A stretch of DNA of 64,000 nt from an uncultured Bacteroidota bacterium (GTDB lineage Bacteria > Bacteroidota > Bacteroidia > Flavobacteriales > Flavobacteriaceae): NCBI GenBank assembly GCA_902561795.1, contig CACERG010000005.1, forward strand, positions 1-64,000, given 5' to 3'. A program made the translations under genes and the position numbers. This document shows positions 35,708 to 54,205 of the stretch, in pieces (within the stretch, counting starts at the first letter, position 1; each line of letters starts with the position of its first letter). Under the pieces are notes generated by a model. That model saw only the letters and a program-made list of their open reading frames with translations. It searched no databases and was not told the origin of the DNA.

Positions 35708-35709
35708 AA

Positions 35710-36645
35710 ATGTTAAGTCGAGTTGCAAATAATTTATTTTGGATGGATAGATATATGGAAAGAAGCTATGGTCTATTAAATCTGATTAAAACTAATTATA
35801 ATTCTACATTAGATTCTGGCGATTACTCATCATGGAATAAAATTATGTTCACATATTTAGCAATTCGAAGTGAAAATGAATACAAAAATCACCAAGATTC
35901 AATATCAACAATTTTTTTCATTTTGTTTGACAAAAAAAACCCAAACACCCTATTTAATATGGTAGTTAAAGCTAGAGAAAATGCTAGAAGTGTCCAAGAA
36001 CATATTTCTAGAGAACTCTGGTTATCAGTTAACAAATTTTTTCTCCATCTTACCGAGGAAGACATGATTCTTAAGTATAAGAAGAGTGAACCAATAACTA
36101 TAGTGAACGAACTTCTTCAATTTAGTCATATCTATTACAGTGTTGCGGATATTACCCAAGAAAGAGGAACAGCATATTGTTTTATGAATTTAGGCAAATA
36201 TTTAGAACGAGTGGTTCAGAGTATAGATTTTTTAAATCTCAGAATTATTAGTCTTGATAACGAAAAAGAGGATTTATATGAAAGCTATTTCTTTAAGAAT
36301 TTATTAATTTCAATTGGAGGGTATCAACTATATTTAAAAACCTACAAATCAATTTATAAAATTGAAAATGTAGTAAAAATGATTGCAATAAATGAAAATT
36401 TTCCTAGATCAATTATTTACAGTGTCAATAAATTAGATGTACACATTGGAAGGCTTAATGAGTTTAATCAAATAAAAACTGGTGAATTAAACTTCATGGT
36501 TGGCAAACTAAAAAATCATTTAAAATATTCTACTATTGATGCAATTAAACAAAATGGCCTTGAACAGTTTTTAGATAATATTAAGTTTGAATTAAATAAA
36601 ATTTCAAATAGCATTAACAAAACTTACTTTAATCAGATTTTTTGA
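35710..36645 (+). CDS. Alpha-E domain protein
   Basis: The 311-residue, all-helical protein begins MLSRVANNLFWMDRYMERSY, the diagnostic N-terminus of the alpha-E domain (DUF403). An in-frame ATG upstream lies within the ATP-grasp gene and is rejected. The ATG is two bases past the ATP-grasp stop. Conserved features include ARENARSVQEHISRELW near 90-106 and a cluster of charged residues, RGTAYCFMNLGKYLERV, near 150-166. Its biochemical role is unproven, and by genomic association it works with the flanking ATP-grasp and transglutaminase proteins. It has no signal peptide or membrane segment. Confidence 0.9.
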   Translation: MLSRVANNLFWMDRYMERSYGLLNLIKTNYNSTLDSGDYSSWNKIMFTYLAIRSENEYKNHQDSISTIFFILFDKKNPNTLFNMVVKARENARSVQEHISRELWLSVNKFFLHLTEEDMILKYKKSEPITIVNELLQFSHIYYSVADITQERGTAYCFMNLGKYLERVVQSIDFLNLRIISLDNEKEDLYESYFFKNLLISIGGYQLYLKTYKSIYKIENVVKMIAINENFPRSIIYSVNKLDVHIGRLNEFNQIKTGELNFMVGKLKNHLKYSTIDAIKQNGLEQFLDNIKFELNKISNSINKTYFNQIF

Positions 36646-36646
36646 C

Positions 36647-37606
36647 ATGTTCAAATATTATTTAACACATTCGACATATTATAAATATTCAAATCAAATT
36701 CAAGAGAATACAAATAGAATCTGCTTGTACCCATACAATGACATGATTCAGCAATTAGTTAGTCATAAATTAGAAATTACGGGTAATCCAAATGTGTCTA
36801 CTCATATTGATGAGTTTAATAATAGAGTTGGTTTCTTTAACTATATCCCACCTCATAAGGAGATGACAATTACATCAAAGGCAGAAATAATTTTGAAGAG
36901 CAAAAATCTACCAGATGAAGAAATTGACATTTTGAGTGAATGGACTAAAATAAATGATATTTCAAAAGATATAGATTATATGCATTTTTTGAAAATTGAG
37001 AATTTTTTTGCTAAAAATAAGTTTAAAAAAATTTTGAATGAGTTAAGGAGTGAAAATGATTCCGTATTAAACTTTTCAAAAGTTCTTTGCACATATGTAA
37101 ATAAAAACTTTAAGTATAAGAAGGGGGTGACAAACATTAATTCATCTCTTGATGAGGTATGGAAGTTAAAATCTGGGGTATGTCAAGACTTCACAAATAT
37201 TTTTATCCAATTACTTAGATTATCAAAAATACCCACCAGATATGTAAGTGGATATGTTTTTTCAAAAGGAGGTTTAATAGGTGCTGGAGCGACCCATGCA
37301 TGGGCAGAAGTATTTATTCCATTTTATGGCTGGCTTGGATTAGATCCTACCAACAATTGTGTTGCAGATAAATATCATATAAGACTTTGTGTAGGGAGGA
37401 ATTATGAGGATTGTTCACCTATAAAAGGTGTTTTTAAGGGTAATGAAAAGCAGTCTATGAAGGTCAAAGTATATTTAGACACTAAAAGAAATTCTAAGTT
37501 TGATAAAGTGGAGTTTAATGACTCAGAAAATCAAAGTCAACCGATAGTTACCAAGCCTTTTAATAGTTTTCAAAAAAACTTACAAATAGTTCAACAACAG
37601 CAATAA
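36647..37606 (+). CDS. Transglutaminase-like cysteine protease/transferase
   Basis: The 319-residue protein has an N-terminal beta domain of the bacterial transglutaminase-associated type (about 1-100). The papain-like transglutaminase core follows. The catalytic triad is visible as Cys179 in SGVCQDFTN, His217 in GATHAWAEVF and Asp233 in GLDPTNN. VGRNYEDCSPIKGVFKG is typical of this subfamily. No signal peptide is present, so it acts in the cytoplasm. It starts one base after the alpha-E stop. It could hydrolyse or crosslink the amide bond made by the ATP-grasp partner, which is inference. Confidence 0.9.
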   Translation: MFKYYLTHSTYYKYSNQIQENTNRICLYPYNDMIQQLVSHKLEITGNPNVSTHIDEFNNRVGFFNYIPPHKEMTITSKAEIILKSKNLPDEEIDILSEWTKINDISKDIDYMHFLKIENFFAKNKFKKILNELRSENDSVLNFSKVLCTYVNKNFKYKKGVTNINSSLDEVWKLKSGVCQDFTNIFIQLLRLSKIPTRYVSGYVFSKGGLIGAGATHAWAEVFIPFYGWLGLDPTNNCVADKYHIRLCVGRNYEDCSPIKGVFKGNEKQSMKVKVYLDTKRNSKFDKVEFNDSENQSQPIVTKPFNSFQKNLQIVQQQQ

Positions 37607-37748
37607 AAATAAAAGAAGTGGTACTTTAGTCTTTGTTATTGAATTGTTTACTTTACTTTTCATTTTGAAACAAACCTTTGAATAAAATGAAGTCACAAAA
37701 ATTCAAAATAATAAAACTTGACATTATGTGTTTTTGGATTTAATAAAG

Positions 37749-39953
37749 ATGTTAAATAAACCTGTTTTTCTTTTAATTTTTAGCCTTTTTTTTAATCAAA
37801 TATTTTCTCAAAAAAAGGTTGACTCTACTCATGTTAGATTTACAAATCAAAAAATTATAATTGATGGGATCGATGATGAAACAGATTGGGAAAAAGCAGA
37901 ATTAAAGTCTGATTTTTGGCAGTGGTTTCCTACAGATTCTATTAAGGCTTTAAAACAAACTGAAATAAAGTTTTTATATGATTTAAATAATATTTACTCA
38001 TTTGTTAAATGCTATGAGAGTGAAGACGAAAGTATTATATCGAGTCTCAGAAGAGATATGGGTAGATTTTCTGATTTTTTTCTATTTACATTAGATACTT
38101 TCAATGATTTAACAAATGCTTATGCTTTTGGAGGAAATTCCGTAGGTGTAAAAAAAGATGAAATTTTTTTTAATGGTGGGAGAACACTGGGAGAAGATGC
38201 AAATTGGGACTGGGATGCAAAATTTGATCTAGAAACAAAGATTTATGAAAATTTTTATACTGCCGAAATAAGAATACCATTAAGTTCAATAAGATTTGCA
38301 AACAACAGTAAATCTTGGAGATTTAATGTGTCGAGAAGAAGAATTATTGATAATGAATTTTCTACTTTATTCAGGGTGCCTCAAGAACAATCTTTTATCA
38401 ACCTTTCATTTACCGAACCATTAGTATTTGAAAAACCTTTGGGAAAATCTAAAACTCCGATAACCATAATTCCCTACATAAATTTATTAAAATCTAAGAC
38501 TTTTGAAAATAATGAAAAAACTAACAATCTTGAATATGGGGGTGATGGAAGAGTATTTATTGGAACAGGACTTAATTTAGATTTTACAATTAACCCTGAT
38601 TTTTCCCAAATAGAAGTTGATGATCAAATTATTAACTTAACACGTTTTGCAGTTGCTCTTCCAGAAAAAAGACAATTTTTTATTCAGAATAGTGATCTTT
38701 TTAGTGGCTTTGGAGATACTTTCGAAAATAGAGCATTCTTTACAAGGCGAATTGGGGTTACTAAGGATCTAAATGGTAACACAATTCAAAATAAAATTCG
38801 TGCAGGGGTAAGATTAAGTGGAAAACTCACTAAACGTCTTAGAATTGGATTATTGAATATGCAAACAGCAAAAGATGAAGAAAACTTGATATCATCTAAC
38901 AACAATACAGTCTTATCATTTCAACAGAATGTTTTTTCTAAATCGAATTTAAAATTTTTGTTTGTTAATAGGGAAGAAACAGGTCAAGATAACTTTGAAT
39001 CAGAACAAGAGCGTTATAATCGTTTACTTGGTTTTGATTACAATTTTATTTCAAAAAATGATAAAATTAGAGGAAAGGTCTTTTTTTATAATACATTTTC
39101 CCCATCTGAAGAAAATGAGGGAATATCAACGGGCTTTAGATTTAATTACAATGATATAAAAAATAGGTTTAGGACTGTATTCACAAGAACAACACCAAAT
39201 TTTACAAGTGATCTAGGGTTTTCCAGAAGAACAGGATTTAAAAAAAATTACACAAAATATGATAGAGTTTTTTTTCCGAAATCTAAATTAATTCAAAGTA
39301 TAACAATAGGTCCTGAGTTATATTATATTGATAAACCAGAAGAAAATAACCTAGTAACTGATAGAAGATTGAATGCTAATTTTTCTGTCAATTTTAAAAA
39401 CAGGTCTAGGATTGATTTATCACTCGTTAATACCTATATATATTTAGAAAATAGTTTTGACCCCACTGGGTTAAATTATGATTCTCCAATAACAGAAGGT
39501 GCTTATGATACTTCTCAATTTGAATTTGGATTTAACTCTACAAATAGACGAAAATTTAGATTTAACTCTGAAATTAGTTTTGGAGGATATTTCAGTGGTG
39601 AAAAGTTTTCAATAAGTAATAATTTTAATTTCAGAATAGATAAACTTTTACAAGCAAGCTTAAAATTAAGCTACGATAAAATAAATTTACCTGAACCTCA
39701 AAAATCAGTAGGTTTAATTTTGGTAAGTCCAAAATTGGATTTTACATTTACTAAAAATATTTTTTGGGCCAGTTTTATCCAGTTTTCGAATTTTTCAAAT
39801 ACACTAGGTATTAATTCTAGACTTCAGTGGCGTTTTGCTCCTTTATCAGACTTATTTTTGGTATATACTGACAATTCAAATTATCTTGAAAACGATTTAA
39901 TACCTAATTTTAGGACAATAAATTTGAAAATAACTTATTGGATCAATATTTGA
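37749..39953 (+). CDS. DUF5916 outer-membrane protein with N-terminal CBM9-like domain (copy A)
   Basis: The 734-residue protein starts at MLNKPVFLLIFSLFF and has a signal peptide ending near Gln residues. The first 200 residues form a CBM9-like beta-sandwich, with KIIIDGIDDETDWEKAE as the hallmark opening. Residues from about 220 to the end are rich in alternating hydrophobic/polar strands and aromatic residues, as in a large outer-membrane beta-barrel. It closes on a strand ending in Trp-Ile-Asn-Ile. SQIEVDDQIINLTRFAVALPEKRQFFIQN resembles the DUF5916 core, and its counterpart occurs in copy B near 49,600. Function is not known. The family often accompanies secreted peptidases. A DUF819 gene follows on the other strand. 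Confidence 0.85.
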   Translation: MLNKPVFLLIFSLFFNQIFSQKKVDSTHVRFTNQKIIIDGIDDETDWEKAELKSDFWQWFPTDSIKALKQTEIKFLYDLNNIYSFVKCYESEDESIISSLRRDMGRFSDFFLFTLDTFNDLTNAYAFGGNSVGVKKDEIFFNGGRTLGEDANWDWDAKFDLETKIYENFYTAEIRIPLSSIRFANNSKSWRFNVSRRRIIDNEFSTLFRVPQEQSFINLSFTEPLVFEKPLGKSKTPITIIPYINLLKSKTFENNEKTNNLEYGGDGRVFIGTGLNLDFTINPDFSQIEVDDQIINLTRFAVALPEKRQFFIQNSDLFSGFGDTFENRAFFTRRIGVTKDLNGNTIQNKIRAGVRLSGKLTKRLRIGLLNMQTAKDEENLISSNNNTVLSFQQNVFSKSNLKFLFVNREETGQDNFESEQERYNRLLGFDYNFISKNDKIRGKVFFYNTFSPSEENEGISTGFRFNYNDIKNRFRTVFTRTTPNFTSDLGFSRRTGFKKNYTKYDRVFFPKSKLIQSITIGPELYYIDKPEENNLVTDRRLNANFSVNFKNRSRIDLSLVNTYIYLENSFDPTGLNYDSPITEGAYDTSQFEFGFNSTNRRKFRFNSEISFGGYFSGEKFSISNNFNFRIDKLLQASLKLSYDKINLPEPQKSVGLILVSPKLDFTFTKNIFWASFIQFSNFSNTLGINSRLQWRFAPLSDLFLVYTDNSNYLENDLIPNFRTINLKITYWINI

Positions 39954-39984
39954 ATTTGTAACGCTTATAACTAATATTAAGATC

Positions 39985-41121
39985 TCAAATATTATTTAAA
40001 ACATATATTACAAAAAATCCAAGGTAAGTTCCAATAGCATTTCCTAAGGTGCCCATTAAAATTGATGGTAAAATCAGTTCATTTCTTTTAAAAGTCTCTG
40101 CAAGTGCAATTGCGGAAGCTCCTCCACCTACATTTGTTTGACTTGCAATTGCTACCATTTGCCAATCTCGATAAAATAGACCACCGATAATGATTATTAA
40201 TATTCCATGTATTAACACTGAAACACTTGTGAACAAAAAAAGAGTAATTCCTATCTCTTTGAGCTCATAAACAGCATTTATTTCACAATATGCCCCTATA
40301 ACTGCTAAGAATAAATGAACTAGATATAAGCCTAAATTATGACCTCCTTTTAATTTACTAATAAAGTTGGTTTGAGCCAGAAGAATACCAATTGTTGAAA
40401 GGATTAAAATGGATGGAATACTATTAAATTTTTTAGCTAAAATTTCAGAAATATAAAAAGCTGAAATTCCAAGGAAAATCAAACTTGCTAAAGAAACTAA
40501 GTCCATTTTATCTTCATCAAAATTTTTTTCATTAGAAATAGGTTGTTTTAATATTACTTTACCCTTCCATATTTTTGATAAGATTAGTGGAAATGTCAAA
40601 GTAGCTAATATCCAAATTGTTGTTACAACATTATCAACGGCAACTGTTCCTGCATATAAAATTCCTTTTTTTTGAAAACCATATTCTAATGCCACTGCAT
40701 TAAAGTTGACACTGCCTCCTGTGTAGGTCCCAGTCAACATTCCTGCAATTACATTTGCATCTGAGCCTAATACGTTTTCAGGAGATATAATTATCCATGA
40801 TATTAGAATTCCTAGTGTTGTTGATAGTGATCCAACTACAAATAATGTGATCATTGGTAAACCTGCTTTTTTTATTGAAACAAGATTCACATTCAGAAGC
40901 AGAAAAAATATTGATATAGGAGCTATATATTCAAAAATTATAGAATACAATTCAATACTGTTTGAAGCAGACGGAATAAGTTTCAGATTAGCAATAATTG
41001 CTGTAAACAATATTACCAAAAGAGCTGAACCTAACTGCTTTCCTAATTTTGTCCTGCCTACATATAATGATAAAATTATCATAAGACAAAGCATAAGAAG
41101 AACATAAACTGTATTACTCAT
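39985..41121 (-). CDS. DUF819 family membrane transporter
   Basis: A polytopic inner-membrane protein of 378 residues with about 11 hydrophobic segments. The conserved pattern GTYTGGSVNFNAVALEYG near 125-142 and the C-terminal IASQTNVGGGASAIALAETF identify the DUF819/YjcL family, related to sodium-dependent transporters and 2-keto-3-deoxygluconate permease-like folds. Cargo is unknown. It lies between two genes for exported proteins on the opposite strand, so its promoter must be in the 102-base gap before the VPS10 gene. Its position within one of two related gene sets suggests import of a product released outside by those proteins. Confidence 0.85.
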   Translation of the reverse strand: MSNTVYVLLMLCLMIILSLYVGRTKLGKQLGSALLVILFTAIIANLKLIPSASNSIELYSIIFEYIAPISIFFLLLNVNLVSIKKAGLPMITLFVVGSLSTTLGILISWIIISPENVLGSDANVIAGMLTGTYTGGSVNFNAVALEYGFQKKGILYAGTVAVDNVVTTIWILATLTFPLILSKIWKGKVILKQPISNEKNFDEDKMDLVSLASLIFLGISAFYISEILAKKFNSIPSILILSTIGILLAQTNFISKLKGGHNLGLYLVHLFLAVIGAYCEINAVYELKEIGITLFLFTSVSVLIHGILIIIIGGLFYRDWQMVAIASQTNVGGGASAIALAETFKRNELILPSILMGTLGNAIGTYLGFFVIYVLNNI

Positions 41122-41223
41122 AATTAGAACATTAAATACTTTTATTAGTTTAATTTATAAAAAAGGAGAGTATAAATTTTAAGTTTTCATAAATTAACTG
41201 TTGAATCTATAAATCTTTTGTAA

Positions 41224-44217
41224 ATGTTTAATCAATTTAAAAATAAATTACTTCTAGCTGTTTTAACTTTCACTTGCAACATTTCATATGGCCAAGAACT
41301 TCAAAGAATAAATTTTGAAGACATTAAATATAGAAATGTAGGACCAACAAGAGGCGGAAGATCAACTTCTGTGTGTGGTGTTATCAAAAACCAATTCACA
41401 TTCTATATGGGAACCTCTGGCGGCGGTTTGTGGAAGACTATCGATGGTGGATTGAGTTGGAATAATATTAGTGATGGGTATTTTGAATCTCCTTCTATTG
41501 GTTCAATTGATGTATTTCAATCAAATCCTGATATTATATATGTTGGAACGGGTTCTGATGGAATACGTTCAAATGTGATTGTAGGAAAAGGTGTATATAA
41601 ATCTTTAGATGCGGGTAAGAGCTGGAAATTTATAGGACTAAAGGGTGCAGGTCAAATAGGCGCAATTAAGGTTCATCCTAAAAACCCTGACATAGTTTAT
41701 GCTGCTGCAATTGGTCAACCATTTAAACAAAATTCAGAAAGAGGATTATTTAAATCAATAGATGGAGGTAAAAATTGGAAAAAAATTCTTTACATATCTG
41801 ATAAAATTGGAATTGTAGATATGGAATTTTCTCCTGATGACCCCAACACAATTTACGCTGCATCATGGGAGGTTAATCGAAAACCATGGACAATAATGAG
41901 TGGATCAAAAGATGGAGGTATATACAAATCAGTTGATGGAGGCCAAAGTTGGACTAAGCTTTTTAAAGGATTACCAAAAGGTAATATTGGAAAAATTGAT
42001 TTGGCAACTTCACCCGCCGACACTAATAGACTTTACGCACTTATCGAGGCAGGAGAAGGTCAGGGAGGCGTTTATGTTTCTTATGATAAAGGGTCAAGTT
42101 TCAACGTAATGAGTCATAGAAAAGAATTGGTAAATAGACCCTTTTATTATTGTAATATTTATGCTCACCCAAAAAATGCAGATGTAATTTATTCAAGTGC
42201 CAATAAGTTTATGGTTTCTATTGATGCGGGTAAAACTTGGGATATAAGAGAAACACCTCACGGGGATAATCATGACATATGGATAAATCCTAATCATGAT
42301 AACATATGGATTCAATCAAATGATGGAGGGGGAAACGTTACTTTTAATTCCGGAAAAACTTGGACTACCCAATTTAATCAACCTACTGCAGAGATTTATC
42401 AAGTCGAAGTAGATCAACAGTTTCCTTATTGGCTATATGGAGGTCAGCAAGATAATTACACTACAGTTTCTGTCCCAAGCCAACCGCCTTATCCGATTCA
42501 GGCAGGACCAAATGCATGGATACTTTCAACCGGTGGCTGTGAAACTGGTCCAGCTGTTCCAAAACCAAGTAATCCGAATATTGTTTACTCAAATTGCAAG
42601 GGAAGATTTAGTATATATAACAAAGAGACTGGACAGGAAAAGCAATATTATGTTGGAGCTCAAAACATGTACGGGCATAATCCAAAAGATTTGAAGTTTA
42701 GATTTCAAAGGGTATCTCCGATACATATTTCTCCACATGATGAAAATGTTATATACCACGGTTCTCAATTTCTTCATAAAACTACCGATGGAGGGATTAA
42801 TTGGAAGATAATTTCGCCTGATTTAACAGAATTTGACAAATCAAAACAAGTTATTTCAGGATCTCCAATAACTAGGGATATTACAGGTGAAGAGTTTTAT
42901 AGTACCATATACTCTGTTAGAGAGTCAATCTTACAGAAAGATTTAATTTGGGTAGGTTCGAATGATGGCTTGGTCCATTTAACTGTTGATGGAGGTAAAA
43001 ACTGGAGAAATGTGACTCCCAGAAATTTATTAAAAGGAGGTCGAGTGGACTCAGTAGAGCCGTCAAGCCATGATCCATCTTCAGCCTATATAACAATTTT
43101 AAGATATCAATTAGGAGATTGGTCACCTTATATTTATAAAACAAAAAATTATGGTAAATCTTGGGAATTAATTGTAGATGGCATACCTCATGACTTTCCA
43201 GTAAGAGTTGTTAGGGAAGATCCATTAAAAAAAGGATTACTTTTTGCAGGTACTGAATTTGGAATTTTTGTTTCACAAAATGATGGAAATAACTGGGTAA
43301 AATTTCAAAAAAATTTACCAATTACTCCAGTAACTGATCTTAAAATACATAGAGACGACCTTGTCTTATCAACAATGGGAAGATCATTTTGGGTTATGGA
43401 TGACATTAATTTTTTAAGAACTGATTTGAATGGACCAAAACCCATAGTTGTAAATCCTTCTGAGGCGGTTCGTTATCAATATAACATTCCTGATATAGAA
43501 ATTAATGACTATTTACAAGCAGGTGTTTTTATTGACTATTATCTGGATAGTGACAAGTATCAGGATGTCTTGATTTCCATCTTAGATGAAAAAGGAAAAA
43601 TAATTGACTCTTTTAATTCAATTTCGAGTGAAGCTAAAGAGTCAACTAACTACAATATGCAACTTAGTGACTTTTCATCCAATGCATCTTATAAAGTGAC
43701 AACCAAAAAAGGCTTCAATCGTTTTAGATGGAACCTAAGACATCGAGGAATATATGATGATGATGAAGAAAAAAATATTGTGGGTCCATTTGTTAGTCCA
43801 GGTAAATATGTAGTTGAAGTAACACTTGACAATACCAATAAAATTTCATCTGAATTTTCAGTTGAAAAAGATCCAAATACAGAAATCTCTCAGGATGTCT
43901 TTGCTGAAGTTGAACAATTTCAATTAAAATTAATCAACAAGATTAGAGAGGCAACGAGGATTTCAAATGAGATCAAGTCATTGAAACTATCAAAAAATTT
44001 AAAGAAAAATAAGTTACAAGGCCTAGACGCAATTTTAGAAAAACTAGAAACCAAAGAGGGTGATTACATGCAGCCAATGCTAATTGATCAGTTTAAATAT
44101 CTCTACAGTATGGTGACTGAAGCCGACCAAGTTTTAGGTAAAGATGCTTATGATAGATATAAAGAACTAAGTTTGCAACTTGAAAAAATTACACAAAAGG
44201 AATTAACATTAAATTGA
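41224..44217 (+). CDS. Secreted VPS10/sortilin-like BNR-repeat beta-propeller protein (copy A)
   Basis: The 997-residue protein has a signal peptide (about 1-23, ending ISYGQ). The N-terminal half and more carries repeated Asp-box/BNR motifs of the type SxDxGxxW, for example TIDGGLSW, LDAGKSW, SIDGGKNW, SVDGGQSW, SIDAGKTW and TVDGGKNW. The propeller is of the VPS10/sortilin or GH74-like ten-bladed kind. The segment from about 840 to the end has a beta domain and a helical stretch. No sialidase or GH74 catalytic residues can be established by eye. These proteins are widely annotated as glycosyl hydrolases on the basis of the repeats only. A small secreted protein gene follows 72 bases downstream. 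Confidence 0.85.
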   Translation: MFNQFKNKLLLAVLTFTCNISYGQELQRINFEDIKYRNVGPTRGGRSTSVCGVIKNQFTFYMGTSGGGLWKTIDGGLSWNNISDGYFESPSIGSIDVFQSNPDIIYVGTGSDGIRSNVIVGKGVYKSLDAGKSWKFIGLKGAGQIGAIKVHPKNPDIVYAAAIGQPFKQNSERGLFKSIDGGKNWKKILYISDKIGIVDMEFSPDDPNTIYAASWEVNRKPWTIMSGSKDGGIYKSVDGGQSWTKLFKGLPKGNIGKIDLATSPADTNRLYALIEAGEGQGGVYVSYDKGSSFNVMSHRKELVNRPFYYCNIYAHPKNADVIYSSANKFMVSIDAGKTWDIRETPHGDNHDIWINPNHDNIWIQSNDGGGNVTFNSGKTWTTQFNQPTAEIYQVEVDQQFPYWLYGGQQDNYTTVSVPSQPPYPIQAGPNAWILSTGGCETGPAVPKPSNPNIVYSNCKGRFSIYNKETGQEKQYYVGAQNMYGHNPKDLKFRFQRVSPIHISPHDENVIYHGSQFLHKTTDGGINWKIISPDLTEFDKSKQVISGSPITRDITGEEFYSTIYSVRESILQKDLIWVGSNDGLVHLTVDGGKNWRNVTPRNLLKGGRVDSVEPSSHDPSSAYITILRYQLGDWSPYIYKTKNYGKSWELIVDGIPHDFPVRVVREDPLKKGLLFAGTEFGIFVSQNDGNNWVKFQKNLPITPVTDLKIHRDDLVLSTMGRSFWVMDDINFLRTDLNGPKPIVVNPSEAVRYQYNIPDIEINDYLQAGVFIDYYLDSDKYQDVLISILDEKGKIIDSFNSISSEAKESTNYNMQLSDFSSNASYKVTTKKGFNRFRWNLRHRGIYDDDEEKNIVGPFVSPGKYVVEVTLDNTNKISSEFSVEKDPNTEISQDVFAEVEQFQLKLINKIREATRISNEIKSLKLSKNLKKNKLQGLDAILEKLETKEGDYMQPMLIDQFKYLYSMVTEADQVLGKDAYDRYKELSLQLEKITQKELTLN

Positions 44218-44289
44218 AATACAAAACATTCTTTATCAAATTTATTTGTACATTGTTTTTTTAGAATTTAACCATAAAAATTTTTTAAA

Positions 44290-44982
44290 ATGAAAAAATT
44301 ATTTTTTAGTATACTAACACTTTCTACTATATCAATAAATGCACAGTATTGTTTATTTTTCGATATTAAAGCTGAAGAACCAGAAATGGTGGTCTCTGCA
44401 CTTACAGCCGCTATGAACACTGAGTGGGCAAAAAATATGCAGGCAACAAAATCTCTTTTTGCCTATCTTCCAAATGGAAAAATTGAATCAACTCATTCGC
44501 TGCAATTTTGTTTTCCAGATGAGGCCGCTTTTGAGGCTGCCTTTATGAGTTATGGTCAGTCTTTAGTAGCACAATTACTATTTGAGGGCAAATTAGCAGA
44601 TTATTCCGTTGATATATCTCAATCTTTAAATATGCCTATTTGGTATAATGGGGAAGACTGGGCTGAGGACAATGTTTTTATGATTTATCAAATGGACGTT
44701 TCCAATCCATCAATGTATCTCAAAGAGTTTAAAAGTTTTTCTCAAAAAATGGCAAAAAAACTTGGTTTTGAAGAAAACTCTTATGGGCTAGCTATGCCAA
44801 TTTTAGGTAAAAATGCTGATTTTAGTCATTTTGTATGGATTGGTGCCCCCGATATAAAAACTTCTCTATCGAGTATGAAGAAAATGTTGTCTGATCCTGG
44901 ATTTTCTGAATTTGCTAAGAAAGTTGCTGCAATAAGAAAAGTAGTTAATACTACAATGCTTGTCCGTCTAGCTGATTTTTAA
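44290..44982 (+). CDS. Small two-domain secreted protein (copy A)
   Basis: The 230-residue protein has a signal peptide (MKKLFFSILTLSTISINA, cleaved before QYC). The mature part looks like two similar alpha/beta units. Each opens with a strand, CLFFDIKAEEP near 21-31 and VFMIYQMDVSNPS near 127-139. Each continues with a helix rich in Ala, Lys and Leu and a strand with His, TSHSLQF-type. The order suggests a tandem ferredoxin-like or dimeric alpha-beta-barrel arrangement. It resembles the protein at 50,529-51,215 over its whole length. I do not recognise a named family. It is followed 18 bases later by a strong terminator and preceded by the VPS10 gene. Confidence 0.75.
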   Translation: MKKLFFSILTLSTISINAQYCLFFDIKAEEPEMVVSALTAAMNTEWAKNMQATKSLFAYLPNGKIESTHSLQFCFPDEAAFEAAFMSYGQSLVAQLLFEGKLADYSVDISQSLNMPIWYNGEDWAEDNVFMIYQMDVSNPSMYLKEFKSFSQKMAKKLGFEENSYGLAMPILGKNADFSHFVWIGAPDIKTSLSSMKKMLSDPGFSEFAKKVAAIRKVVNTTMLVRLADF

Positions 44983-45000
44983 AATATTTTTTAAAAATTT

Positions 45001-45028
45001 AACCCTCCATTTTGGAGGGTTTTTTATT
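45001..45028 (+). terminator. Rho-independent terminator after small secreted protein A
   Basis: AACCCTCC at 45001-45008 and GGAGGGTT at 45014-45021 form an eight-base stem with a five-base loop, then a T run. The stem is identical to that of the terminator at 51,234. Confidence 0.85.
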
Positions 45029-45101
45029 TTAAAATCTCACTAATAAAGTCAAAAACGTATCTATTTATCAAAAAATGAAGTTTTCCAAATTTGATATTTG
45101 T

Positions 45102-48100
45102 TTACAAAAATTTGCCTGTTTGATTTTTTAATTTTGATAATTCATCTAAATAACCTGATAATTCCTCTTTTAAAACCTTAAAAACTTTTTGAGATCCTTT
45201 TGTTGGTAATCCATCGCCGCTCTCAACACTTTTTCTTAAATAAGCTAATCTGTTATTTACCTTTATGGGAAAATTGAGTGGATCTTGACCACTTCTATTT
45301 TTTACTTGATAAATGTTGGCTTCAATTTTTTCTAATTTGTTAATTAATATTTTGATTCTTTCTGAAATATCACTTTTTGTTTTGTTTGCTTTTATGAGTA
45401 ATTTCTTTTTAATTTCTCGAATTTCAATTACGCTATTGTTTGCCAGATCTGTCTGCAACATTATTTCCATGGCAAATTCAAATTGTTTTTCTATCTCCTC
45501 ATCGCTAATTTCAATTCTTGGATCCTTTCTAACCTCCAAAGTTGTTTCATACAATTTATCATCAACGTTCAGTTTAACAATATACCTTCCAGGTGGTGCT
45601 ATTGGGCCTAGTGATGGCTTTGCCGACCACATAATCATTCCTTCAAATTCTGTTACCCCAGGATATCTAAGGTTCCAACTGTAACTATTCAAGCCTTTTT
45701 TCATCATAGGGTCTTTGTTTTTAGGACCAAACCAAGAAGTATCTTCTTCATCTGTTTTATCCTCAAGAATACCATCTTTATCTAAAACAATCCTGCCCTT
45801 AGAGTCTATGATTTTTAAGGATAGCTTGTTTGGAATAGATGGTAAAAAATACTTTATTTCAGCATTTTGAACCCTTCTTGTGGCGTAATAGGATTTATAT
45901 AAATAAGGATTTTTAGGATTTACTTTTTTCATTTCTCTAATTGGTGAAATGTCATCCAAAATATAAACAGACCTTCCATGTGTACCAATGACTAAATCTT
46001 TGTCAGTAACTATTAAATCTGAAATTTGTGTATCAGGTAGATTTAAACTTAAAGATTCCCAATTGTCACCATCATTGTAAGAGACCCAAACATTATGTTC
46101 CCCACCTGCATACAGAAGACCTTGAATTTTGGTGTCCTCTCTTATAACATGAAGAAAATCGTCTGATCTTATTCCGTTTACAATTTTTTTCCAAGACTTA
46201 CCATAATCATTAGTTTTCCATAGATACGGTTCTCTATCATCCATTTGATATCTTTTAGCAGCAACATATATAGTTCCTGGTTTGTGTAAGGATTCTTCAA
46301 TTATGCTTATCCTTGTGTCTTTAGGCATATCATTGGGTGTAATGTTTTCCCAAGTTTTGCCATGATTTTTAGTAATATGTATTAAACCATCATCTGAGCC
46401 TGCCCAAATTAAATTTTTATCGTGATTAGAAGGAACTAAAGCAAAAATTGTAGCATAAATTTCAGGACCATTCATATCATTTGTTATTACTCCCCCTGTT
46501 TCTCCAAGTGTATTTGGATCAGCATAAGTTAAATCCGGGCTAATTTTATTCCAACTGTAACCATCATCTTCAGAAACCCAAACATGTTGAGACGAGGTAT
46601 AAAGTTTATTTGGATTTAATGGAGAAAAAACAATGGGAAATGTCCACTGCCATCTCTCGGGTAGAGCACTTGCAGGTTCACCAGAAAAAAATCTAGGGTA
46701 AACTTGTATATCTCTGTTGAAACCAGTTTTTCTGTCAAATTTAGTCAATAAGGCTCCCTGACTACCAGCATAGAACCAATCTAAATTTATTGGGTGCTGG
46801 GCTATGTAGCCTGATTCTCCTCCTCCTACTGGATAATAGTATTGTTTGTGGGGCCCTCTAGCTTGTTTAAATTCCCAACCCTCTGATGGCACACACATAG
46901 TTGAATTATCTTGTTGAGCACCACAAACAAAATATGGAAAATCTTTTGTTACCATTATATGATAAAGCTGCGAAGTAGGAAAATCGAGATCAGTCCAAGT
47001 ATTTCCTCCATTAACTGATACACAACCACCTCCATCGTTAGCATTAATCATTCGATTAGGGTTTTTAGGATCAATCCACAAATCATGATTATCCCCGTGA
47101 GGTACTTCAATTTTTTTATCGAATGTTTTTCCTCCATCAGTTGATTTATAAAAACCAGTGTTAAGTGCATAAACGATATTTTCATTTTTTGGATCTGCAT
47201 AAATTCTACTATAGTAAAAAGCTCTTTGCCTTAGTTTACGTTCATCATTTAATTTCTTCCATGTTTTTCCTGCATCCTCTGAAGAATAGACACCACCATT
47301 ATTTGATTCAACTATAGCCCAGAGCCTGTTTGAATTAGCTCCGGAAACTGTAATTCCAATTTTTCCAAGAGGTTTATCTGCGAAGCCAGAGTTATCGGAT
47401 ATGTTTTCCCATGTTTCACCACCATCAGTGGATTTATACAATCCACATTCTTCGCCACCACCTAACATTTTATATGGAGTTCTGTATACTTGCCAAAACG
47501 ACGCATAAATAACTTCGGGATTATTTGGATCAAGAATTAAATCAATAGCTCCAGTTTTAGAACTTTTATACAATATTTTTTTCCAGTTTAGACCCCCATC
47601 GATGGATTTAAAAACACCTCTTTCTTGGTTTTCACCATATGGATGACCTAAAGCTGCAACATAGACAACATTAGGATTTTCAGGATGAATTCTAATTTTT
47701 GAAATGGCATGGGTATCTTTAAGTCCCATGTGTGTCCACGTTTTACCTGCATTATTTGATTTGTAAACACCATCACCTTGCATTATATTCCCTCTAAGTT
47801 CAGTCTCTCCCATCCCTATAAATAAAATATCTGGGTTTGAATCTGAAACTGCCACTGCACCTACTGAAGAACTATTTATTTGACCATCAGTTATTGGATC
47901 CCAAGTAATTCCTCCATCTGTTGTTTTCCAAAGACCACCTCCAACAGCACCAAAGTAATATTCGTTTATCCTTGAGGATGATCCAGAAACTGCTAACGAC
48001 CTTCCACCCCTGTCAGGACCAATATTTCTCCATTCTAAGTTTTCTACTATATTATTTTTTTGACTATTTATATAAGAAGAAAAGGAAATAGTTAAAGAAA

Positions 48101-48125
48101 AAATAAGTATTGATATAAATTTCAT
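45102..48125 (-). CDS. Secreted VPS10/sortilin-like BNR-repeat beta-propeller protein (copy B)
   Basis: The 1007-residue protein has a signal peptide (about 1-21) and resembles the protein at 41,224 throughout. It opens with NIGPDRGGRSLAVSG (copy A: NVGPTRGGRS) and has the same GGGLWKTTDGG block. Many BNR motifs follow (NNAGKTW, SIDGGLNW, STDGGETW, SEDAGKTW, STDGGKTF, SEDDGYSW, TKNHGKTW). The C-terminal 170 residues are a beta domain and a coiled helical region. A DUF5916 gene precedes it on the same strand, so these two may be co-transcribed. Enzymatic activity cannot be claimed from the repeats. Confidence 0.85.
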   Translation of the reverse strand: MKFISILIFSLTISFSSYINSQKNNIVENLEWRNIGPDRGGRSLAVSGSSSRINEYYFGAVGGGLWKTTDGGITWDPITDGQINSSSVGAVAVSDSNPDILFIGMGETELRGNIMQGDGVYKSNNAGKTWTHMGLKDTHAISKIRIHPENPNVVYVAALGHPYGENQERGVFKSIDGGLNWKKILYKSSKTGAIDLILDPNNPEVIYASFWQVYRTPYKMLGGGEECGLYKSTDGGETWENISDNSGFADKPLGKIGITVSGANSNRLWAIVESNNGGVYSSEDAGKTWKKLNDERKLRQRAFYYSRIYADPKNENIVYALNTGFYKSTDGGKTFDKKIEVPHGDNHDLWIDPKNPNRMINANDGGGCVSVNGGNTWTDLDFPTSQLYHIMVTKDFPYFVCGAQQDNSTMCVPSEGWEFKQARGPHKQYYYPVGGGESGYIAQHPINLDWFYAGSQGALLTKFDRKTGFNRDIQVYPRFFSGEPASALPERWQWTFPIVFSPLNPNKLYTSSQHVWVSEDDGYSWNKISPDLTYADPNTLGETGGVITNDMNGPEIYATIFALVPSNHDKNLIWAGSDDGLIHITKNHGKTWENITPNDMPKDTRISIIEESLHKPGTIYVAAKRYQMDDREPYLWKTNDYGKSWKKIVNGIRSDDFLHVIREDTKIQGLLYAGGEHNVWVSYNDGDNWESLSLNLPDTQISDLIVTDKDLVIGTHGRSVYILDDISPIREMKKVNPKNPYLYKSYYATRRVQNAEIKYFLPSIPNKLSLKIIDSKGRIVLDKDGILEDKTDEEDTSWFGPKNKDPMMKKGLNSYSWNLRYPGVTEFEGMIMWSAKPSLGPIAPPGRYIVKLNVDDKLYETTLEVRKDPRIEISDEEIEKQFEFAMEIMLQTDLANNSVIEIREIKKKLLIKANKTKSDISERIKILINKLEKIEANIYQVKNRSGQDPLNFPIKVNNRLAYLRKSVESGDGLPTKGSQKVFKVLKEELSGYLDELSKLKNQTGKFL

Positions 48126-48204
48126 AATAAATTTTTTTGTGTAACTCGTTTCAAATTAAAAAAAAATTAAGCAATATGAATTGTTAAAACTAATTTTTGT
48201 GTAA

Positions 48205-50433
48205 TCATATACCAAACAAATACTGAAATTTTAAAAACAATTGAGTTTGGTCTACTCGAAAAAGTGAATACATGTCATCATTAAATTCACTTAATGAGTT
48301 TTGATTGCCACCTATATAAAAAACAGTTGATGGATTTGGATTCCATTGAATTAATGGCTGAATAAAAAATCTTTCAGAAAATGTATTATACTCAGAAATT
48401 ATTCTAATATTAAAAAAATTATTGAACTGATATCGGATGGAAAATCTTGAGATAGATCCATTGTAATAAAAATTATCGCTATCCAAATATTTTAACCTTG
48501 CATATCTAATTGAAGGCGAAATTCTCAATTTATTACTTAGTTGTATCAATGGAATAAAGTTGAAAGTTAATTCTTTCCCTTTTTCTGGGATAGCTTCATT
48601 AAATGCTAACTCTCTCCCAACAGTAAAATTTAAATTTAAGGCAAAAGATTCGCTAGGGCTACTTCGAATTACAAATCGATTACTCTCCAAATTTCTATAA
48701 TCTCGACCAAGAAAGTTTTTAAACGCATCAAAGTCCAGGGTATAAGTAATTTCAGTATTGAATAAAGTTTTTATACTTAAAATGCCGTCTATACTAATTG
48801 TTTTTAGGTAGTCTTCGTAGGTATATACTATATCTGCTTTAGTTCCGAAACTTAAAAATTGGAGAGCAGGTTTATTTGGAAATACTTGGTAAGCATGATA
48901 AAGAGTTGCCCATCTTCTATTATTTTTTACAAAAAACCCAACATCTGCTTGGAAATTTGGAGAAAAGTCTCTATAAGTTAGATAAGATCTCCATTTTTGG
49001 GTATTTCTATAAAGCTGAAAGTAAAGAGATTTACCATTAAAATTTTGATTATCCAATACTACTGACCTGCCGAAAATATTATCTTCAGACTCAATCCAGT
49101 CTGCAACCGGCTCTTTATTTAAATTGAGAAATAATTCATAAGTAAACCTCAAGTTTTTTGATAATAAAAACCAACCGTCTGTACCAAATAAATTCCCATA
49201 GCCTCCATTTTTATAATATCTGTTTGTAGATAAAAAACCAAGGCGTGCATTTTTACTAAGAAGACGTTGATATCTTAAAACATTGACAAAAGATTCTTCT
49301 CCTTCACCCAAATAAGATCGATCTTCACCTGCAATTTGATATATTGAATTTTGATCAAGTGCAGTAAGAAAAAATAAACGTTCTTTTTTTCCCTGACTAA
49401 TTAGCTTTGTTGATATCAATGGGTTATTTATTGATCTTGAATAAAATGCACCGCTTACGTATTGAACGATATCAGTTCCACGATTAAAATAAGGTCTTCT
49501 TTCGGGATATTCTAAGGCCACCGCAGAATTTACATCAATTTGCGTGACATCGGCCTCTACTTGAGAAAAATCAGGATTCAAAGTCACCTCAAGAGTACTG
49601 TTCTTATTCAAATCGACATTAAGACCTAGTCCGAAGTTAGGTTGTAGTTTTTGATATTTGATTTCATCAAATAAATTGGATTTACTACCAGTAATATTTC
49701 CCGCGAGGTAAGGTAAAAACTCAACTCTTTTGTCAATTTTGATATCAGATAATATTAACTTATCGGTAGTTTGACATATTTGACATGGAGCAGTTCTGTC
49801 ATATTTTTGGCTTCTAAGCTCTATTGGTATACCTTCTCTAAAAGTGTTTCTTCTAAAATTAAAATTCCATTCTTGATTGTTTCCATTAGGGAAAGGTAAC
49901 GATGCGAATGGTATTTTAAATTCAACCTGGTAGCCATCAGATACAATCGTCCCACTTGTTTCATGATCTACATTAAAATTTATATCATACCTATCTTCAT
50001 CAGTAAGAGCATTAATTGCTCTTGCATCTAATTGACTTCCAAAGGCATTAGATAAAAGAAGATAATTATTTCTGCTATCACCATAAGTATCAAAAGCTAT
50101 TACCACAAAATCATCACTTATCATCCCTAAGTCATCTCTAGAACGAACTGAGGCTCTTATATTCTCTGGTTTTGAAAATGCATGGAAACCTATATACAAG
50201 TGAGTATCAGAATACAAAACATAAACTTTAGTTTTTTCTTTTGGAATAATATTATTCCCAGGATTAACTTCATAATCAAGGTCAACAGAAATAGCATTTT
50301 CCCACTCTTTTTCTGATATTATACCATCAATTAAAATTTGAGTCTCATTAGTTTTATTTGGAATGAATTTTTCCTGAGAATAATTAAATGAACTAAATAG
50401 AATTATCGATACTATGTGTATTCTGTGGAACAA
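48205..50433 (-). CDS. DUF5916 outer-membrane protein with N-terminal CBM9-like domain (copy B)
   Basis: The 742-residue protein has a signal peptide (about 1-18) and a CBM9-like first domain with ILIDGIISEKEWENA near 31-45. A barrel-like DUF5916 region follows to the C-terminus, which ends in aromatic-rich strands (FLKFQYLFGI). Family blocks DFSQVEADVTQIDVNSAVALEYPERRPYF and FGLGLNVDLNKNSTLEVTLNPDF are counterparts of those in copy A. It is 79 bases upstream of VPS10 copy B on the same strand. It is divergent from small secreted protein B. Copies A and B are paralogues rather than recent duplicates. Confidence 0.85.
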   Translation of the reverse strand: MFHRIHIVSIILFSSFNYSQEKFIPNKTNETQILIDGIISEKEWENAISVDLDYEVNPGNNIIPKEKTKVYVLYSDTHLYIGFHAFSKPENIRASVRSRDDLGMISDDFVVIAFDTYGDSRNNYLLLSNAFGSQLDARAINALTDEDRYDINFNVDHETSGTIVSDGYQVEFKIPFASLPFPNGNNQEWNFNFRRNTFREGIPIELRSQKYDRTAPCQICQTTDKLILSDIKIDKRVEFLPYLAGNITGSKSNLFDEIKYQKLQPNFGLGLNVDLNKNSTLEVTLNPDFSQVEADVTQIDVNSAVALEYPERRPYFNRGTDIVQYVSGAFYSRSINNPLISTKLISQGKKERLFFLTALDQNSIYQIAGEDRSYLGEGEESFVNVLRYQRLLSKNARLGFLSTNRYYKNGGYGNLFGTDGWFLLSKNLRFTYELFLNLNKEPVADWIESEDNIFGRSVVLDNQNFNGKSLYFQLYRNTQKWRSYLTYRDFSPNFQADVGFFVKNNRRWATLYHAYQVFPNKPALQFLSFGTKADIVYTYEDYLKTISIDGILSIKTLFNTEITYTLDFDAFKNFLGRDYRNLESNRFVIRSSPSESFALNLNFTVGRELAFNEAIPEKGKELTFNFIPLIQLSNKLRISPSIRYARLKYLDSDNFYYNGSISRFSIRYQFNNFFNIRIISEYNTFSERFFIQPLIQWNPNPSTVFYIGGNQNSLSEFNDDMYSLFRVDQTQLFLKFQYLFGI

Positions 50434-50528
50434 TTTTTTAAGATAAAAAAGTGCAAGTTATTGAATAAAAACAAAGTCTATATCTTTTTTCATAATTTAG
50501 ATAATCAAATAATTATAAACCAATCAAA

Positions 50529-51215
50529 ATGAAAAAAATAATTTTTTTACTTCTATTTGCCAGTTCAAGTTTAATTTTTTCACAAAATATTGCATTTGAA
50601 CAGGTGGCTATAAAAGTTAAGCCAGGGAGCTCTGCTCACGTTCTTAATCTTTTTAATGATTTTTATGGTAATATTGAAAAGCCTGAAGGTGTTAATATTA
50701 GGCTTTCATATTTAAATTTTAGACCTCAAGATATAGAAGCTACTCACTATTTAACTTTTACGGGATCACTTGAAGGACTTGCAAAACTGAGAGAAATTAG
50801 AGGAGGTGATAAATATTCGTTGTATAATTCAAATATGTTAAGGCATGCAGATATAATTTCTACAAGTGGTGGAACAAGTTTAATGAGAATGAATTTAAAC
50901 AAAGGGAATCAACCTATTTCTCAAGTATGGAGGTGGAGAGTTGATGATCCAGCGAGTTTTGCATCTGAATTTACAACTCTAATCAAAGCTTTCACTCAAT
51001 TAGGATATCTTTCGTTAGGTCAAATTACCCACGGAATTGGACAGGATGGGGAATCACACTATGTATATATGACTCATGAAGATTATTCAGGAGCATTAGG
51101 TTGGGGTCCCAAAACCCAAGCCGAACAGCAAGCGTTTTTAAAATTTCAGAAAGCAACTTCAAAATACTCAACATTTTTGGGTTCAGTAACAATGTCAAAT
51201 ATTAAAGTTTGGTAA
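50529..51215 (+). CDS. Small two-domain secreted protein (copy B)
   Basis: The 228-residue protein has a signal peptide (MKKIIFLLLFASSSLIFS, cleaved before QN). Two alpha/beta units are apparent: FEQVAIKVKPGSSAHVLNLFN near 22-42 and QVWRWRVDDPASFASEF near 136-152, each followed by a helix and strands. HYLTFTGSLEG in unit one parallels SLQFCFPDEAA in copy A. The length, signal peptide, layout and downstream terminator are shared with copy A. No catalytic motif is visible. It stands divergent from DUF5916 copy B and upstream of the GntP operon. Confidence 0.75.
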   Translation: MKKIIFLLLFASSSLIFSQNIAFEQVAIKVKPGSSAHVLNLFNDFYGNIEKPEGVNIRLSYLNFRPQDIEATHYLTFTGSLEGLAKLREIRGGDKYSLYNSNMLRHADIISTSGGTSLMRMNLNKGNQPISQVWRWRVDDPASFASEFTTLIKAFTQLGYLSLGQITHGIGQDGESHYVYMTHEDYSGALGWGPKTQAEQQAFLKFQKATSKYSTFLGSVTMSNIKVW

Positions 51216-51233
51216 ACTAATTTTTAAATCTCT

Positions 51234-51261
51234 AACCCTCCAATTCGGAGGGTTTTTTTTA
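51234..51261 (+). terminator. Rho-independent terminator after small secreted protein B
   Basis: AACCCTCC at 51234-51241, loop AATTC, GGAGGGTT at 51247-51254, then a T run. It separates the small protein gene from the GntP operon. The stem is the same as at 45,001. Confidence 0.85.
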
Positions 51262-51301
51262 ATATTTGTATTTAGAAAACAAGTAATTTCAAATTATAAA
51301 T

Positions 51302-52618
51302 ATGCCTTTAGTAATTGTTTTTATAGGAATTTTATTTTTATTTCTCCTAATAACTTTTTTTAAATTCAACGGATTTATTTCTTTTATATTGGTAGCAATA
51401 GGAATTGGAATAACCCAAGGAATGCAATTAAATGATATTGTAAATTCTATAGAAAATGGTATTGGGAATACATTAGGATTCCTTATTATGATTTTAGGAT
51501 TTGGAGCTATGTTAGGAAAACTTGTTGCTGAAAGTGGTGCAGCTCAACAAATAACTAATGGTTTAATTAAAATTTTTGGAATTAATTATACTAAAGTAGC
51601 AGTAATGTTAACTGGTTTCATAGTTGGAATCACAATGTTTTACTCAGTCGGTTTTGTCATTTTAGTCCCCTTAGTTTTTACTGTAGCAAAAGCAACTGGT
51701 CTTTCATTGATTGGAGTAGGATTACCTATGCTAGCATCATTATCTGTTACTCACGGATTTTTACCACCACATCCTGCCCCTTCAGCATTATCAGTAATGT
51801 TTGAAGCTGATATTGGAAAGACTCTCATCTATGGTATTTTACTTTCCATACCTGCAATTTTAATTTCAGGACCTTTATTAACTAATTTCTTGCCTAAAGT
51901 AGAAGCTAAGCCTCTTAAAGAGTTTATGACAACAAAAGTATTCAAGCAAGACGAATTACCAAGCTTATTTAATAGTCTATCCACAGCTTTATTACCAGTA
52001 TTATTGATTGGTTTTTCTACTTTGATTTCTTTTTTAATTCAAGAGGAGAGTATTTTATCAAAGTGTATAAATTTTGTTGGAAATCCAGTGATTGCTCTAC
52101 TACTTACACTTCTTTTAGGTACATATTCGTTAGGAATTTCAAGAGGTAAAACCATGAATCAAATCATGAAAACTTATGCAGAGGCGGTATCAGGAATTAC
52201 GATGGTTCTTTTGGTTATATCGGGTGCTGGTGCCTTAAAACAAATTTTAATTGACAGCGGGGTCAGTGATTACATTGGTGGAATACTTGAAATATCTTCA
52301 ATGTCTCCTTTATTAATTGGTTGGATAATTGCGACACTTATACGTTTTTCTGTGGGTTCTGCTACAGTTGCAGGCCTCACAACAGCTGGAATAGTCTTAC
52401 CTTTAGTTCAAAATACAAATGTGAGTCCTGAATTAATGGTTTTATCTATTGGATCGGGTAGCCTCATGTTATCACATGTTAATGATAGTGGGTTTTGGTT
52501 ATTTAAAGAATATTTTAATTTAACTGTAAAAGAAACACTTTCCACATGGACTGTTATGGAAACAAGCATAGGAATTTCAGGACTTTTTGGAGTTTTAATT
52601 TTAAACCAATTAATATAG
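51302..52618 (+). CDS. GntP family permease, possibly a D-serine (DsdX-like) transporter
   Basis: A polytopic proton symporter of 438 residues with about 12 membrane segments. Family stretches include GFLIMILGFGAMLGKLVAESGAAQQI near 59-84, PPHPAPSALS near 157-166, TLLLGTYSLGISRGKTM near 261-277 and HVNDSGFWLFKEYF near 397-410. GntP members carry gluconate and related sugar acids, while DsdX of E. coli carries D-serine. Downstream RidA and a D-serine-dehydratase-like gene, with spacings of 1 and 5 bases, favour an amino-acid cargo here. That is inference from context. Confidence 0.88.
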   Translation: MPLVIVFIGILFLFLLITFFKFNGFISFILVAIGIGITQGMQLNDIVNSIENGIGNTLGFLIMILGFGAMLGKLVAESGAAQQITNGLIKIFGINYTKVAVMLTGFIVGITMFYSVGFVILVPLVFTVAKATGLSLIGVGLPMLASLSVTHGFLPPHPAPSALSVMFEADIGKTLIYGILLSIPAILISGPLLTNFLPKVEAKPLKEFMTTKVFKQDELPSLFNSLSTALLPVLLIGFSTLISFLIQEESILSKCINFVGNPVIALLLTLLLGTYSLGISRGKTMNQIMKTYAEAVSGITMVLLVISGAGALKQILIDSGVSDYIGGILEISSMSPLLIGWIIATLIRFSVGSATVAGLTTAGIVLPLVQNTNVSPELMVLSIGSGSLMLSHVNDSGFWLFKEYFNLTVKETLSTWTVMETSIGISGLFGVLILNQLI

Positions 52619-52619
52619 A

Positions 52620-53084: not shown

Positions 53085-53089
53085 TATAG

Positions 53090-54199: not shown

Positions 54200-54205
54200 A
54201 GAATT

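Follow-up and report, generated by a model that had tools for sequence, protein, structure and literature searches.

Small secreted-protein genes with shared flanking signals beside a VPS10/DUF5916 surface-protein locus in marine Flavobacteriaceae

The contig CACERG010000005.1 of assembly GCA_902561795.1, from an uncultured member of the Flavobacteriaceae, was analyzed over a stretch of 64,000 nucleotides (the window), which carries two sets of genes encoding DUF5916, VPS10/BNR and small secreted proteins. Set A comprises the genes encoding DUF5916-A (about 740 aa; 37728..39953, plus strand), a DUF819 membrane transporter (39985..41121, minus strand; Pfam E 2.8e-49), the VPS10/BNR propeller A or VPS10-A (41224..44217, plus strand), and the small secreted protein small-A (44290..44982, plus strand), followed by a terminator with a CCCTCC/GGAGGG stem (45001..45021, plus strand). 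Set B comprises the genes encoding the VPS10/BNR propeller B or VPS10-B (45102..48125, minus strand), DUF5916-B (48205..50433, minus strand), which is a recurrent neighbor of VPS10 in the genus, and the small secreted protein small-B (50529..51215, plus strand; assigned by family alignment), which is preceded by a 26-nt leader abutting its ATG (50503..50528, plus strand) and followed by a terminator of the same type (51234..51254, plus strand). The host genome (G000) amounts to 1.73 Mb in 41 contigs and is 80.8% complete; its relatives include marine Flavobacteriaceae single-cell genomes and metagenome-assembled genomes (MAGs), such as SCGC AAA795-G10 and TMED48, and the isolate MS024-2A. A previous sequence-only reading of this DNA had delimited and named the genes of both sets, and its coordinates and identities were upheld; it had also interpreted the two sets as the outcome of an old duplication and rearrangement of a working unit made of a surface barrel, a propeller and a small partner.

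Like the Sortilin/VPS10 BNR and DUF5916 proteins of Bacteroidota, VPS10-A, VPS10-B and DUF5916-A pass the Pfam cut-offs: the two propellers score 84.2 and 118.2 bits, respectively, against the cut-off of 33 for Sortilin-Vps10 (PF15902; E 1.1e-23 and 5.3e-34), and DUF5916-A scores 69.3 bits against the gathering cut-off of 22.6 for PF19313 (E 3.8e-19). The DUF5916-B protein is not listed at a Pfam E of 0.01, and a stretch of its DNA reaches 46.9 bits (cut-off 22.6); the group of about 740 aa to which it belongs is distant from the canonical DUF5916 members of about 800 aa. DUF5916-A is predicted to be outer-membrane-barrel-like, with an N-terminal CBM9-like part. A structure-database sequence search found no solved structure related to DUF5916-B, VPS10-B matches the solved BNR "glycosyl hydrolase" 3b7f (E 8.5e-8), and a literature search by name found no paper on DUF5916. 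The three protein types had been described as paralogous between the sets. This holds for VPS10 (37% identity across about 1000 aa) and DUF5916 (26% identity, E 8e-22), whereas small-A and small-B show no BLAST similarity (E 2.4) and are homologous at the level of their family profiles, which align over 217 columns (hhalign probability 98.5, E 1.6e-15). Neither small protein has a Pfam match at 0.01. One of the 23 small-B family members weakly matches NIPSNAP (E 0.0012) and thus resembles the NIPSNAP-like dimeric alpha/beta barrels, from which the other 22 differ in having no such match. Most of the structure-database matches of the small-B profile were designed TPR proteins and were taken to be spurious. 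In both small-A and small-B, the likely signal peptide is followed by a Gln residue, a pattern described for Bacteroidetes (PMC5837995). Paralogs of small-B are present on contigs C3 and C25 of the host genome.

The two terminators have identical stems (AACCCTCC/GGAGGGTT) starting about 20 nt past the stop codon of each small gene, and differ in their loops. No further CCCTCC/GGAGGG stem exists in the whole window, and none occurred in 100 shuffles. The hairpin was found 3' of 18 out of 21 small-A genes (that of the window and 20 other loci; one of the three exceptions lies where a contig ends) and 3' of eight out of nine small-B genes adjoining DUF5916-B. In 1.35 Mb of DNA of the genus (84 loci, many of which were picked for small genes), about half of the 100 strong perfect-stem terminators carry the CCCTCC core. 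The pattern CCCTCCN{3,7}GGAGGGTTTT was searched genome-wide in three genomes of the genus and three outgroup genomes of the same family: it matched 11, 17, and 12 times in G000, G148, and G171, which correspond to 10, 15, and 9 places once the palindromic matches on the two strands are merged, and it was absent from the three genomes of other genera, the backwards control giving no match in any of the six. Most of the 38 open reading frames (ORFs) read upstream of these hairpins are short and start with MKK. The identity of the stems noticed in the sequence-only reading was confirmed, but since the stem is genus-wide it was rejected as a trace of local duplication.

A second signal is located at the 5' end of these genes, where the 26 nt preceding the ATG have the consensus ATATTATTAATCATAAATCAATTAAA (30.5 bits). 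With a position weight matrix and a threshold of at least 24 bits, this leader was detected at 71 sites in 1.50 Mb of DNA of the genus and at none in Markov shuffles; there were two sites in 519 kb made up of 34 loci of the genus not picked for small genes, and zero and two sites, respectively, in 293 and 771 kb from other genera. In the window, the leader of small-B scores 19.4 bits and that of small-A is degenerate (less than 12 bits), while the nine small-A orthologs listed score 32–39 bits. Among the 69 genes with a leader of at least 24 bits, 35 have a CCCTCC hairpin within 150 nt, 14 have a weaker hairpin, and two are cut off. Their products start with MK in 64 cases, have a median length of 230 aa, and show an N-terminal hydrophobic run in 63 cases based on a crude test; they are probably periplasmic or surface proteins. 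Two genes with both leader and hairpin (L219, 215+, and L248, 819+) occur in loci taken to be outside the genus, possibly as the result of transfer between genera. No leader was matched in viral contigs. The five hairpin-plus-tail matches in viral contigs have different flanks, have no leader in the stretches examined, and were taken to be due to chance.

The genes carrying these signals, which are called cassettes below, encode diverse proteins. The 64 proteins scanned against Pfam (63 of the 74 listed, the 11 left out being mostly small-A and small-B orthologs, plus small-A of the window) matched 17 models at 0.01. SnoaL types were the commonest, and DUF1059, CMD, SMP-30/SGL, DUF3237, DsrE, and beta-lactamase were among the others. 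Merging overlapping models, which was done by judgement, leaves about ten unrelated groups, and common descent of the ORFs cannot therefore account for the common flanks. Small-A and small-B belong to this set of small genes, which is spread across the genus, encodes mostly secreted proteins and has DNA signals in common at gene start and end.

Several of these genes form tandem arrays: L259 (G148), which constitutes an entire contig of 8.4 kb, L254 (G000), L059/L125 (G150), and L265 and L053 (G171). The 14 intergenic stretches have either a short form of 65–133 nt, often composed of terminator, promoter-like box and leader, or a long form of 207–256 nt with some 120 extra conserved bases. Nine long spacers align at a mean column identity of 77%, middle part included. 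Among the 45 longest BLASTN matches listed for each side, some of which correspond to true orthologs, the DNA upstream of different genes shows, for example, 72–89% identity over 185–205 nt and the downstream DNA up to 93% over 140 nt, both within one genome and between species. In pairs of unrelated genes, the similarity of the region from −90 to −27 was 13.8 within genomes vs. 9.9 between genomes (7.1 after shuffling), an excess reached by none of 2000 label permutations, although the significance of this test, like that of its downstream counterpart, is inflated because related genomes were counted separately. The genome assemblies are fragmented, and several small-A contigs end immediately 3' of the gene, which could be caused by such repeats. 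In six array loci, only tRNAs reached the Rfam gathering score. A single sub-threshold Rfam match to U4 in positions 36000–53000 of the window was taken to be due to chance.

Unrelated genes of this genus thus share their flanks, are arranged in tandem arrays and have homogenized upstream regions, and these features are, within the DNA examined, nearly restricted to the genus and are found in some excess after tRNA genes. The explanation we regard as probable is that two independent things overlap at the locus, namely a surface-protein locus made of VPS10 and DUF5916, both multi-copy families in this genus of marine Flavobacteriaceae, and small-gene cassettes acting as expression modules homogenized by recombination. 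Each module would consist of a promoter region, the 26-nt leader ending at the ATG, the ORF and, often, the CCCTCC/GGAGGG terminator, and spacers of recurring sequence, at most about 250 bp long, would link neighboring modules. The promoter and leader may give the cassette genes similar expression, the terminator may insulate each module, and the repeats may allow ORFs to be gained, lost or swapped, either through homologous recombination or through a recombinase that escaped notice. The VPS10 and DUF5916 genes would be outside the cassette system, the locus being a place where cassette genes meet surface-protein genes: since small-A and small-B sit in cassette modules, they would have landed there as cassettes rather than as subunits of a duplicated machine.

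Several points weigh against this explanation. Much of the DNA examined was picked around small genes or hairpins, the leader matrix was trained on matches that were later counted, and the genome-wide counts rest on a hairpin pattern search of six genomes. The two signals do not always occur together: 18 of the 69 leader genes have no hairpin at all, and 11 of the 38 ORFs preceding a hairpin did not pass a permissive leader filter and another had a negative score, the failures including ordinary genes and reverse-strand readings of the hairpin. Remote members of the small family often lack the CCCTCC/GGAGGG stem, and 44 of the 69 cassette proteins fall into one single-linkage cluster. The restriction to the genus is not strict, as the 771 kb from other genera contain four hairpins in addition to the two leaders. 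In the 60 nt downstream of unrelated genes, the similarity is 13.3 within genomes vs. 13.7 between genomes (5.3 after shuffling), that is, without any within-genome excess. A tRNA gene (Ser, Leu, or Ala) on the same strand lies within 450 nt upstream of 7 of the 88 distinct leader sites, vs. about 0.5 expected, but, several of them being orthologous, the seven amount to approximately four independent cases and the 450-nt limit was chosen after the data had been seen; no copy of a tRNA 3' end was found downstream of these sites. No recombinase was found among the 25 Pfam families listed, out of 64, for 85 neighboring genes, nor among ten proteins scanned singly. Alternatively, gene conversion within a regulon could maintain the similarity of the shared flanks.

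The relationship between VPS10 and DUF5916-B has to be considered separately from that of the small genes. A VPS10 gene lies alongside DUF5916-B in 24 of the 34 neighborhoods of the genus, and is VPS10-C, a third paralog, in 16 of these cases and VPS10-A in eight. In the VPS10-A cases of the window's clade, small-A or VPS10-B lies between VPS10-A and DUF5916-B. VPS10-C has fixed surroundings of its own. The presence of DUF5916-B beside VPS10 in two settings is a hint of a working relation, yet each gene also occurs without the other: ten of the 34 neighborhoods have no VPS10 (one is cut by a contig end), VPS10-C remains in place without DUF5916-B in eight syntenic loci, and in G179 and G160 (L113 and L119) DUF5916-B occupies the VPS10-C place and VPS10-C is missing. 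No VPS10 was found in the stretches examined around the 38–41% identical DUF5916-B paralogs of eight genomes, and elsewhere VPS10 is present in 4 of 45 and 1 of 16 loci, which is near chance. The identities between the copies of 19 genomes were compared: in the 70 pairs in which only one of the DUF5916-B copies is at the VPS10-C locus, DUF5916-B shows 68.2% vs. 71.9% for VPS10-C; when both are at the VPS10-C locus (91 pairs), 78.9 vs. 76.1%; and when both are elsewhere (10 pairs), 73.0 vs. 77.7%. These values suit a single DUF5916-B ortholog that would have changed place, the alternative being replacement by a diverged copy. The products of DUF5916-B and VPS10 would probably cooperate at the cell surface or share substrates there. 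That the two genes form a functional pair to which the small genes are bystanders, a proposal compatible with the first part of the explanation favored above, is plausible without being the expected outcome: the genes adjoin, mostly tail-to-tail, with two different VPS10 paralogs at two loci, and the loci lacking one of the two partners, in the genus and elsewhere, argue the other way.

Another possibility is that nothing moves, and that the cassette genes simply form a regulon under one transcription factor, with a strong translation leader and a terminator that happens to be the favorite of the genus. Promoter-like TATATCTTAG or TTTGTATATTG boxes, recognized by eye, are located just 5' of the leader, some ordinary genes also end at the hairpin, and the absence of within-genome excess downstream is in keeping with this idea. 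A regulon of this kind is nevertheless unlikely, given that the long spacers also conserve the 120 bp separating terminator from promoter, that one spacer recurs from species to species between gene pairs that differ, and that upstream DNA is homogenized within genomes, to which the excess after tRNA genes adds some weight.

The proposal that barrel, propeller and small partner are a single machine that was duplicated and rearranged was examined by searching for its parts in other genomes. Among 148 genomes drawn from the order, small-A was found in none apart from its own (1/148); 25 of 60 related genomes, its own included, have a match, all of them in the genus and two of them remote matches only. 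A clear ortholog is present in 22 relatives, 20 of which were used for comparing neighborhoods (G156 and G173 were left out). The gene order of the window is kept in four of the 20 (G178, G163, G157, and G165; L044–L047), and VPS10-B is missing from its place in all four, which are the closest syntenic relatives. The small-B of G165 is 99% identical, those of G178 and G157 are 68–70% identical, and G163 has none at the corresponding site. In the other 16 loci, small-A has no immediate neighbor among the window's partners, several contigs ending near the gene; VPS10 relatives are located 5–6 kb from small-A in L057 and L059. The VPS10 gene of L057 (G148, contig C1, 608852–612014) is split over two reading frames and is perhaps a decaying copy. 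In the other loci of the host genome, VPS10 is found on contigs C1, C3, C6, and C18, DUF5916 on C2, and the small genes on C3 and C25, and the types are not combined, except that a very remote small relative (E 3e-4) lies 4 kb from the VPS10 gene of C1.

Co-occurrence within 10 kb, the check that accompanied the proposal, was counted in ten genomes of the genus and, because counting related genomes separately inflates the significance, in a reduced set consisting of the five outside the window's clade. A small gene was near VPS10 in 13 of 52 cases vs. 2.95 expected (3 of 18 vs. 0.85 outside the clade) and near DUF5916 in 10 of 52 vs. 1.57 (1 of 18 vs. 0.64), and DUF5916 was near VPS10 in 9 of 28 vs. 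1.55 (3 of 17 vs. 0.82). The pairwise links are thus above chance in the genus (Poisson 6e-6 to 4e-5), mostly due to the window's clade. Both partners accompany 6 of 44 VPS10 genes in the ten genomes, but 0 of 20 in the five outside the clade, and among 45 DUF5916-B relatives outside the genus, defined by a DUF5916-B identity of 56% or less and not by taxonomy, VPS10 was present in four neighborhoods, a small gene in six, and both in none; in other lineages, no excess over chance was found for the three types together. The association of small genes with VPS10 is at odds with the overlap of two independent things, and so is L093 of G158, which is also the main result against discarding the duplicated unit: this genome, which lies outside the window's clade and inside the genus, has small-B, DUF5916-B, VPS10-B, VPS10-A, and DUF819 in the order of the window, with VPS10-B at the same site and without small-A.

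VPS10-A clusters with VPS10-C, apart from VPS10-B (95/95, with a warning of long branches from the tool), and DUF5916-A resembles proteins of other genera (41–45% identity) more than it does DUF5916-B. A weak DUF819 relative (26%) lies close to DUF5916-A-like genes in two other genera (L134 and L141), and the DUF5916-A/DUF819 neighborhood could predate the genus. DUF5916 genes of about 740 aa are found two or three in tandem in single-cell genomes of marine Bacteroidetes (L245, L247, L249, and L250). In L122 (G153), a VPS10-B ortholog (80%) lies no more than 6 kb from two small-family genes, with no DUF5916 in the stretch examined. In another Flavobacteriaceae group (L218, L222, and L224), DUF5916 is directly followed by a small-family gene in the same orientation and no more than about 75 nt away, which makes an independent small/DUF5916 neighborhood. 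This last arrangement, the presence of each type twice within 13.5 kb, the three types together in G158 and more loosely in L180, the pairwise linkage over the ten genomes, and the frequent adjacency of VPS10 and DUF5916-B speak for a machine, but the missing VPS10-B in the four closest relatives, the 16 small-A loci without adjacent partners, the VPS10 tree, the DUF5916-A affinities and the counts of 0 of 20 and 0 of 45 led us to discard the duplicated three-gene unit as very improbable.

Two groups of neighboring genes lie on either side of the locus. A GntP permease, a protein which we take to be RidA-like, a D-threonine-aldolase/BhcC-like protein, and an M19 dipeptidase are encoded in a row at 51302–55276 of the window; this row is kept beside small-B/DUF5916-B in several members of the genus and suggests a use of D-amino-acid dipeptides. 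The three adjacent genes at 34265–37606 presumably encode proteins resembling a circularly permuted ATP-grasp, an alpha-E protein and a transglutaminase-like protein.

Among known systems, integron gene-cassette arrays consist of small ORFs in tandem, most of them unrelated to each other, with a repeated hairpin-bearing element in between and a content varying among relatives; their attC sites are imperfect palindromes with RYYYAAC/GTTRRRY cores. The tandem unrelated ORFs with a recurrent hairpin-bearing separator in L259, L254, and L059/L125 are similar, as is the variation in content, but here each gene comes with a promoter-like leader of its own and in many cases with a terminator, inspection of the spacer consensus by eye revealed no evident attC-type core, no integrase was found in the families and proteins scanned (part of the neighbors, some arrays being on short contigs), and cassettes also occur singly and after tRNA genes. 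Mycoplasma vpma-type loci are families of surface-protein genes whose 5' regions are conserved, and are comparable in that many genes for secreted proteins have a conserved sequence directly before the start codon; the ORFs described here differ in belonging to several unrelated families and in having, in about half of the cases, a common 3' hairpin. It is tentatively proposed that marine Flavobacteriaceae possess an integron-like cassette system without known attC sites, swapping a pool of small secreted proteins. The unit of exchange would be a boundary of at most about 250 bp consisting of terminator, conserved spacer and promoter-leader, and the pool (SnoaL/NTF2-like, tandem alpha/beta-barrel-like and other proteins) would be gained, lost and exchanged at tRNA-linked and other sites, its own expression signals included. 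A limited literature search on integrons, gene cassettes and intergenic repeats, made partly by title, found no description of such cassette arrays.

If the cassette architecture is confirmed, it would explain how small genomes (MAGs of 1.0–2.2 Mb) come to have diverse sets of secreted proteins, and the leader would provide a 30-bit tag with which the whole cassette pool could be listed. It also calls for caution, as the presence of a small gene beside a surface-protein gene in these genomes can mean that a cassette was inserted there, and not that the two genes have a common function.

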